A DNA stretch of 64,000 nucleotides from Branchiostoma floridae (lineage: Eukaryota; Chordata; Leptocardii; Amphioxiformes; Branchiostomatidae). The position numbers were made by a program, and so were the translations under genes. The stretch spans positions 23,091,737-23,155,736 of the forward strand of contig NC_049989.1 in the NCBI RefSeq assembly GCF_000003815.2, read 5' to 3'. Every line of letters starts with the position of its first letter. The stretch's first letter is position 1. Positions 26,701 to 29,700 of this stretch are shown here, one piece after another. The notes beneath the pieces were generated by a model. That model had not been told where the DNA came from, did not search any database, and saw only the letters and a list, made by a program, of their open reading frames with translations.

Positions 26701-29700
26701 TTTGTGGGTCAGCCGTCATCAGCTTGAATAGACTGCCTAGGCTGGCCCAGTGTAATGACTTGTTGTCATTTTCAATAAATAAATAAATAAAGGGCACTGT
26801 AGTCCCATGCCCCAACCATGTGCCCGATACCCCGGAGAGCAGGTCTTCTGGCAATGCTGGTTCACCAGTGAATTTATTGGGTCACAATTTTTTTTTAGAA
26901 CGTGTGTAAATAAATGTGTGCTCAGATGTCATCCATAAAATTAAGCCTTACTGACTACTGTCTGTCTGTACCCTGCAGAGTTAGTGAACCCTCCTGAGAA
27001 GGAAGACAAGACCCTGAAGGAAATCACAGACAAGGCAGCGACAACGCTCTTCCTTACCGAGCTCATCAGAGGTAGGTAACACTGTTAAGATCACAATGTT
27101 CATGATGAAGCTCTTAATCTATAATGTATTTGTTTGCCTATCACATTTTCAATCTTCTTAAAATCATTGATATTTTGGTGTGATTCTCTTACTTCTATTG
27201 AATCTAAATACTTGTCAGAGAATTTTTTTTCTTAAGATCTGTAGTACTGATTTTTTACCATTTTCTTGATAATGGTGATGACCCTTCTCATAAAGTTGAA
27301 ATTGTCAAGTCATGTCACTCCTAGTCAACTGAATAGTACAAGGAATGTTTTTGAAAACAACTCCCTTGACCTATGACCTTTGTCCCCAAGTCTGTCAGTC
27401 TTGAATAAGAATTGTTGAGTTTTCTTCATTTTCCTGAATATGATGACCTCTAGCTCTCCTCAGCTCTGTACCCTTGTCTTGACCCCTGACCTCCCCAGGT
27501 CATTAACTACCTTTGACCTCTGCCCTTTGTCCCAGGTCTGTCCATGGCCATCAGCTACATGTTCTGTGAGCCGGCCACCATTAACTACCCCCTGACCTCT
27601 GCCCTTTGTCCCCAGGTCTGTCCATGGCTATCAGCTACATGTTCTGTGAGCCGGCCACCATTAACTACCCCCTGACCTCTGCCCTTTGTCCCCAGGTCTG
27701 TCCATGGCCATCAGCTACATGTTCCACGAGCCGGCCACCTTTAACTACCCCGACCTCTGCCCTTTGTCCCCAGGTCTGTCCATGGCCATCAGCTACATGT
27801 TCTGTGAGCCGGCCACCATTAACTACCCCCTGACCTCTGACCTCTGTCCCCAGGTCTGTCCATGGCCATCAGCTACATGTTCCGCGAGCCGGCCACCATT
27901 AACTACCCCCTGACCTCTGCCCTTTGTCCCCAGGTCTGTCCATGGCTATCAGCTACATGTTCTGTGAGCCGGCCACCATTAACTACCCCCTGACCTCTGC
28001 CCTTTGTCCCCAGGTCTGTCCATGGCCATCAGCTACATGTTCCGCGAGCCGGCCACCATTAACTACCCGTTTGAGAAGGGTCCGCTGAGCCCGCGTTTCC
28101 GCGGCGAGCACGCCCTGCGGAGGTACCCGTCTGGGGAGGAGCGCTGCATCGCCTGTAAGCTGTGTGAGGCCATCTGTCCGGCACAGGTTTGTTGTATTGT
28201 TTGTTTGATATGATTGGTTAATTGCCATTAGAATTAACACAGCAGTTTTGTACAGTAGGTAGTAAGTACATGTTGAGTTGTACCGAACTGTGTGAGGCCA
28301 TCTGTCCGGCACAGGTGAGCTGTTTCACACATGAAATATAACATTACGTTTATGAAGGTTAGACATCCAGGTAAGCAATATTCAAATACAATTCAATCTC
28401 TACAACTGGATAATAAACCATAGGTCTGACCATAGGAATCTATGCTAACATGATTTACATTTCTAGTTACGTTTCTAGTTAGCTGTACTTGTATGGAATT
28501 GTTCTGCTAGCTCATTCTAGTGACGCTGAAGAAGAGTGATGGATGTCAGTCGAAACGTCCGGAAGTAAATATCTGTTTTTTGTCCAGTTGTAGAAATTGA
28601 ATTGTATTTGAAATGTAACATTGTGTAACAGATATAATATCCTGTTCCTTCAACTTTGTAGACCCCATATAGTGTTTAGTATTTGAAAGCAGCACATTAC
28701 TTTTGTTCAGTAGTCTAGAGTTCTAGTTTTAGCACTTGTAATATCAGTAGCAATATATAGCTGGCCTAGATTTAGATTTTTATTTATGTAGAAAATTGAC
28801 ATATTTGTATGAGATGATGAGGGCATCATCTACCATTATGGGGAGGATTGTAATGATAGGCCATGTGTAGCCCATTGACAGTATTGTGACATCTGCTGTG
28901 AATCAAACCCAACTAGAGTTCCACAACCTCATACCTTCGCCGAATGGTTTGAACCTTTTCGATTGAAGTACATTTTGATGAAGTTTGATGTTTTCTCCCA
29001 GGCGATCACGATTGAAGCAGAGCCTCGCGCTGACGGCAGCCGCCGAACGACCCGGTACGACATCGACATGACGAAGTGCATTTATTGTGGGTTCTGCCAG
29101 GAGGCGTGTCCTGTGGATGCTATAGTGGAGGTAAGAGTTGTTCACCAAAAAGCAGTTGCTCAAGCAACTGGAGATGATTTTGGAAACGGTCAGACGTTTC
29201 GGACAACCATCCTTTGTCTTTAGTCAGTGGCGCTGTGGCACTGACGAAAGATACCGGATGATAAAATCAGATCCAGTTTCTTGAGTAACTGCTTTTTGGT
29301 ATATCTTATTACCTGTATGTCTAACCTTCATCGAGGTAAGATCAGTTCAGTTCAGTTCAGTTCAGTTCAAACAGGTAAGATAGGTTTTGATAATTGTTTA
29401 TTGGTTTTTGGTTTGGCTGGAACATGTAGCACAAGCAGTCCTATGTGTTAGTAGAAAAAGTGAATAAGAGACCTAGAAATTAATTTTTGGGAATAGGTGA
29501 ACTGGTGCACCTAATCTCAAATTTTAGATAGCACAATGCTAAATGTTCTTCCAACACAAAGGTCTACATGTATCAAAATTTCAACAACCACTGTCGCCTT
29601 CTCCAGGATCAATACTGATGATCCACGTATACTTTTGTGTTGGAAGAAAGTTGAGCATTGTACTATGATTACTAGCAACACAGATGAGCTTCCATGATAA

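Follow-up and report, generated by a model that had tools for sequence, protein, structure and literature searches.

Amplified exon 4 acceptor of the amphioxus NDUFS8 gene: a mirage-type minisatellite and probable near-neutral passenger

Gene model of the locus

The window analysed is a stretch of 64,000 nucleotides of Branchiostoma floridae (G000:C11:23091737-23155736), and the genome searched comprised 513.4 Mb in 431 contigs. NDUFS8, an essential core gene of mitochondrial complex I, lies in the window on the plus strand. Six exons spliced in silico gave a protein of 212 aa. Exons 3-6 supply a part of 174 aa, which is matched by the NDUFS8 chains of complex I structures in the PDB with E down to 6.1e-105, so the gene had been correctly named in the original prediction. 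The last exon 1 copy was chosen for the 212-aa model; this choice and exon 2 are both putative. A stricter first search for exon 2 gave 0 candidates while a relaxed search gave three, and the candidate taken has ...TFKLVN, which we assume to correspond to the similar ...TYKYVN of human NDUFS8. The exons downstream of exon 1 are as follows, a slash marking the splice junction.

25835 to 25924, plus strand: putative exon 2, 90 nt, phase 1-1, one of 3 candidates from the search for open frames between AG and GT
26979 to 27071, plus strand: exon 3, with the 3' end AGAG/GTAGGT
28014 to 28186, plus strand: real exon 4, 173 nt, donor CAG/GTTTGT; the sole 174-aa frame among 14 acceptor/donor pairs
29002 to 29130, plus strand: exon 5
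30098 to 30229, plus strand: last exon, coding part ending ...NLQADFLYR and stop

Elsewhere in the window, an OHCU decarboxylase gene (URAD-like) is represented by two exons at 10913-12012 (Pfam PF09349). An exon of a MazG-like protein, presumably dCTP pyrophosphatase, lies at 15314-15544 on the minus strand (Pfam PF12643) with an array just downstream of it at 15079-15201, and a run of about 420 N adjoins a long TG repeat at about 37410-37840.

Structure of the exon 4 acceptor array

The acceptor edge of exon 4 is repeated in an array at 27501-28068, for which TRF gave a period of 80, 7.2 copies, 93% matches and a score of 1010. The repeat search resolved seven 80-bp units at steps of 80, 80, 78, 80, 80 and 80; the copies were compared in register and the MAFFT alignment was set aside. 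This bears out the six decoy copies that had been placed before the real exon at 80-bp steps. The seven acceptors, CAG/GTCTGTCCATGG, have their first exonic base at 27536, 27616, 27696, 27774, 27854, 27934 and 28014, exactly as predicted. Each unit holds about 25 intronic bases, made up of a branch point-like motif, a pyrimidine tract and AG, followed by exonic bases; the predicted duplication of exon sequence was thus present, its length being 55 bases instead of about 57. As the branch point-like motif we take CTGAC, with the variants CCGAC in copy 4 and TTGAC in copy 1. The features around the array are given below.

27366 to 27401, plus strand: dead relic of an array unit, CCCCAA/GTCTGTC, AG lost, with 28/36 bases identical to the real acceptor edge
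27485 to 27510, plus strand: truncated unit, CTGACCTCCCCAG/GTC fused directly to ATTAACTACC, reading CCCAG/GTC with first exonic base 27499
27511 to 28013, plus strand: six decoy units (acceptors 27536, 27616, 27696, 27774, 27854, 27934) and the last 25 intronic bases 5' of real exon 4
28288 to 28323, plus strand: copy of the exon 4 donor edge, 92% to 28160-28195, 128 nt downstream, with donor CAG/GTGAGC after 28314

The two degraded copies (27366 and 27499) and the duplicate of the donor edge (28288-28323) go beyond the original prediction. The identity of 28/36 for the first relic was reached in 0 of 300 dinucleotide shuffles, the best of which gave 21, and in the truncated unit the middle of the exonic part is gone. 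Both are recognisable as older copies upstream of the array.

The copies within the array show block turnover. A shift of 318 nt superimposes copies 1-3 on copies 5-7, with 98% identity over 220 nt between 27531-27750 and 27849-28068, and a second block similarity of 95% was seen at 27769-27988. Units 2 and 6 do not differ over 80 nt, and copies 2, 3, 6 and 7 share one 25-nt intronic part, from which that of copies 1, 4 and 5 departs slightly. Such a repeated 318-nt block with two identical units is also what an assembly artefact might leave, in which two haplotypes or slipped reads were merged into too many units, and one globin array of amphioxus seemed aberrantly assembled in the genome draft (PMC3087553, in excerpt). 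This explanation is held to be very unlikely, as there are several distinct variants among the units together with the two decayed outlying copies, and duplicated exon ends were found at 6/27 other loci. A protein search of the genome with the exon matched the NDUFS8 locus alone and gave no second haplotype or further locus.

The whole-genome DNA search with the array region revealed no other genomic copy of the array among the matches listed (40 of 2166 candidates scored). With the full-length self match set aside, all the listed rows (at least 122) fell in query 1340-1635, which is a dispersed element in intron 4, and two of these rows were its arms within the NDUFS8 locus itself. This element (28318-28613) has inverted arms at 28381-28418 and 28575-28612 that are 92% complementary, and it resembles a MITE or a fold-back element.

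Splicing outcomes and strength of the signals

Exon 3 was joined in silico to each of the seven acceptors with the near (28186) or the far (28314) donor, giving 14 pairs. A premature stop was met in 13/14 pairs, among them every pair with one of the 6 decoy acceptors, whichever the donor, and NDUFS8 was obtained solely from the last acceptor paired with the near donor. This is in accordance with the claim that only the last acceptor leads to the full frame. Decoys 3 and 4, whose distances to the downstream real acceptor (318 and 240 nt) are multiples of 3, were considered for in-frame use and were rejected as both run into a stop. An in-frame microexon of 30 nt inside the decoys, from the acceptor to CT/GTGAGC, was likewise set aside; its site is present in 4/6 decoys with a U1 duplex energy of only -4.4, and the site may be explained by CpG decay (CGCG to TGTG).

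The AG and the pyrimidine tract are kept in 6/6 decoys, and all seven acceptors carry the AG/GT junction (CAG/GTCTGT) that had been reported for them. The coding part of the decoys has changed. At one position within a ten-residue peptide, the Arg of real exon 4 and of two aligned PDB chains is replaced in the decoys by Cys (TGT) in 4 and His (CAC) in 1 and kept in 1, as would be expected from CpG decay. This change in 5/6 decoys argues that they are not translated within a working protein.

The intact acceptor signals and the stops obtained from all six decoys with either donor would suit regulated unproductive splicing, in which NDUFS8 output would be tuned through nonsense-mediated decay and the decoys retained for that purpose. 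An early stop is what a frame-shifting tandem copy would mostly give anyway, and no excess of arrays was found at the surveyed exon ends described below. Published amphioxus cases were also reported without disturbance of splicing (PMC3087553 and PMC3902484, in excerpt). A role of the decoys in regulation, which the original prediction had offered, is therefore unsupported by these results and by the stops and Arg changes in the decoys, and this explanation is considered highly improbable.

The U1 pairing energy was used as a rough yardstick of donor strength. It was -7.5 for the real exon 4 donor, -11.1 for its downstream copy and -6.9 for the AG/GTCTGT junctions in place. The real donor thus looks weaker than its copy, so that the right pair is not obvious from exon definition alone. 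The acceptor sequence itself, as read here, is without any feature that tells the real site from a decoy; with the acceptors alike and the real donor weaker than its copy, the choice must rest on context.

With AG/GT at every decoy and units that run from GT to AG, self-correcting recursive splicing is a possible reading, in favour of which the energy of the junctions is near to that of the real donor. The joint of exon 3 with a decoy would rebuild a donor, GAG/GTCTGT, from which a further round of splicing would lead to the next acceptor; mis-splicing would in this way be repaired, however many decoys there are. Juxtaposed acceptor and donor sites define the ratchet points of Drosophila (PMC8605326, in excerpt), and the same juxtaposition is found at 7/7 acceptors here. 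NDUFS8 appears to differ from the ratchet points of Drosophila and human in its weak donor and short intron: the rebuilt donor has only -5.5, where the native donor of exon 3 has -12.0, and intron 3, unlike the long ratchet introns, is only 942 nt. The claim that each junction may act as both acceptor and donor thus holds formally, with a weak donor whether in place or rebuilt. Recursion is accordingly regarded as unlikely, the data from other genes being taken up with the survey.

Other duplicated edges of NDUFS8

Two further edges of the gene lie in arrays.

20941 to 21671, plus strand: exon 1 array, six copies of 5'UTR, ATG and donor with GA-rich repeats between
30198 to 30960, plus strand: last-exon array of C-terminal codons, stop and the start of the 3'UTR, period 101, 7.7 copies (about eight)

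The six exon 1 copies have their ATG at 20997, 21124, 21279, 21371, 21505 and 21638. Up to the donor, each unit holds seven initial codons and one further base; every copy reads MASR(R/M)(L/F)(R/C) and then GTGAGT or GTTAGT. There are three donors of each kind, and CGCG is changed to TGTG in the GTTAGT copies. In principle, any of the six copies could serve as the first exon. Intron 1 holds separate arrays at 24308-24571 and 24947-25185, in which the unit of about 31 bp is nearly palindromic (CAGCACTGG...CCAGTGCTG).

Among the 11 borders of NDUFS8, which include one coding end that is not a splice border, 3 lie in TRF arrays against 0.96 expected from random placement within the window, and this is not significant (P 0.096, and 0.086 by rotation). 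Compared with the survey rate, 3/11 gave P 0.024 and 4/11 gave P 0.003, values which are too small because arrays cluster by gene.

Survey of exon ends elsewhere in the genome

The survey covered a small set of 85 exons at 27 further loci of this genome, belonging to the mitochondrial carrier and proteasome families and to two CCT genes. The family matches were 192 in total (carrier 111, proteasome 21, CCT 60). For the carrier and proteasome families 73/132 matches were surveyed and 59 lay outside the regions taken (some of the 59 in 3-kb loci); for CCT 12/60 were surveyed and 48 left out. Local direct duplication covers 10/170 exon ends (5.9%, bootstrap 95% CI 2.0-10.5%) and, by the same measure, 5.8% of background positions. 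The regions were hand-chosen as multi-exon clusters, and this background is all that lies outside matched exons, where there may be unrecognised exons. The ratio of exon ends to background was 1.01 (0.48-1.72), an interval that admits twofold depletion or 1.7-fold excess. Exon middles were covered at 3/85, and a first pass of 73 exons with a slightly different measure had given 9/146 ends against 5.2%. Exon ends therefore look to receive arrays at about the background rate, with no attraction, no strong avoidance and a wide interval. Edges that are neither favoured nor spared fit near-neutral passengers.

Contigs below 1 Mb account for six of the 27 loci and 3/6 of the positive ones; without them, duplication covers 5/134 ends against 4.9% of background. 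By eye, the splice junction was inside the repeat at 9/10 flagged ends, the tenth (L039) being a last-exon end. The flagged acceptors belong to loci L037, L038, L047 and L056 and the flagged donors to L037, L038, L044, L047 and L056. These ends cluster by gene, 4 loci having at least two of them where 1.39 such loci were expected (P 0.006), and several edges in one gene, as in NDUFS8, are thus unexceptional.

Two of the arrays are described individually. At L037 (G000:C11:21907500-21912800) a carrier-family exon has a 52-bp unit repeated x10 at its acceptor and units of 102 and 118 bp at its donor. At L044 (G000:C171:264400-273000) a carrier-family exon match at 270947-271111 of the contig has about 18 copies of a 39-bp unit on the donor side; because the first of these units holds an in-frame stop, this exon end is perhaps not functional.

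With NDUFS8 included, the AG/GT junction was seen in 3/5 acceptor arrays (NDUFS8, L037 and L056), as recursion would have it, and L038 and L047 are without GT. Exon starts with GT are common anyway, being 9/29 of the confident and 17/76 of all crude acceptor calls, and 3/5 against 9/29 is too few to tell.

Comparison with published amphioxus mirages

Tandem repeats that span exon borders have been described in amphioxus globin genes (PMC3087553, in excerpt), where Adh3 is cited as the source of the name 'mirages' and as a case of somatic instability, haplotypes are reported to have 6 and 3 units, and RT-PCR together with the Adh3 data suggest undisturbed splicing. In the excerpts of PMC3902484, PGBD5 is added as a mirage case and troponin C is cited, and those of PMC2632668 state that VCBP3 introns hold whole exons or parts of exons, of which some have splice sites.

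The NDUFS8 array shares with the mirages of Adh3, the globins BflGb6 and BflGb9, troponin C and PGBD5, as far as the excerpts describe them, direct tandem repeats over an intron-exon border. The unit sizes are similar, being 80 bp in NDUFS8, 150-160 bp in the globins and 60 and 108 bp in PGBD5, and both have acceptor and donor sides affected, cryptic AG and GT sites and block turnover (PMC3087553 and PMC3902484, in excerpt). NDUFS8 differs from the published mirages in being a new gene with four edges hit (exon 1 donor, exon 4 acceptor, exon 4 donor and last exon tail). Judged from its sequence, with border-spanning tandem repeats, an intact protein-coding copy of the exon and concerted turnover of units, the array is real and belongs to the published class of amphioxus mirage minisatellites. 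Among the matches listed from the open-licence literature, no paper on the NDUFS8 arrays was present and no genome-wide count of such border arrays was recognised.

The Rogers model, in which introns are gained by tandem duplication of AG/GT, is cited in the excerpts of PMC3087553. The NDUFS8 units likewise run from GT to AG and would be spliceable as an intron of 80 nt. The array differs from that model in sitting at the end of an existing intron, and is here at most a candidate for such a gain.

Proposed explanation

The array is explained best, with a probability of about 0.84 on the sequence evidence, as a mirage minisatellite whose unit straddles the border by chance. It would have grown by slippage or unequal exchange. 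The spliceosome would take the last acceptor, as no other copy leads into the full exon body with its donor; exon definition and splice-site competition would give the ground on which the last copy wins. Any transcripts that use a decoy would meet an early stop and then undergo nonsense-mediated decay. The array would be tolerated as a near-neutral passenger, like the exon 1 and last-exon arrays of the same gene. The undecayed state of the decoy acceptors was counted against the passenger reading. Most likely, then, the array is a harmless passenger and not a regulator.

Conclusion

A wider scenario, in which amphioxus tolerates splice-border amplification at perhaps one exon end in seventeen and arrays starting with GT correct themselves by forward re-splicing to the full exon, so that copy number drifts freely in an essential gene, is considered improbable. 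One exon of a core complex I gene can have seven near-identical acceptors in competition, with the protein still encoded. The 10/170 exon ends are a small estimate of the frequency of border arrays in the genome, where PMC3087553, PMC3902484 and PMC2632668, in their excerpts, treat single genes. Border arrays are natural experiments on the choice of the spliceosome among near-identical acceptors, and on intron gain.
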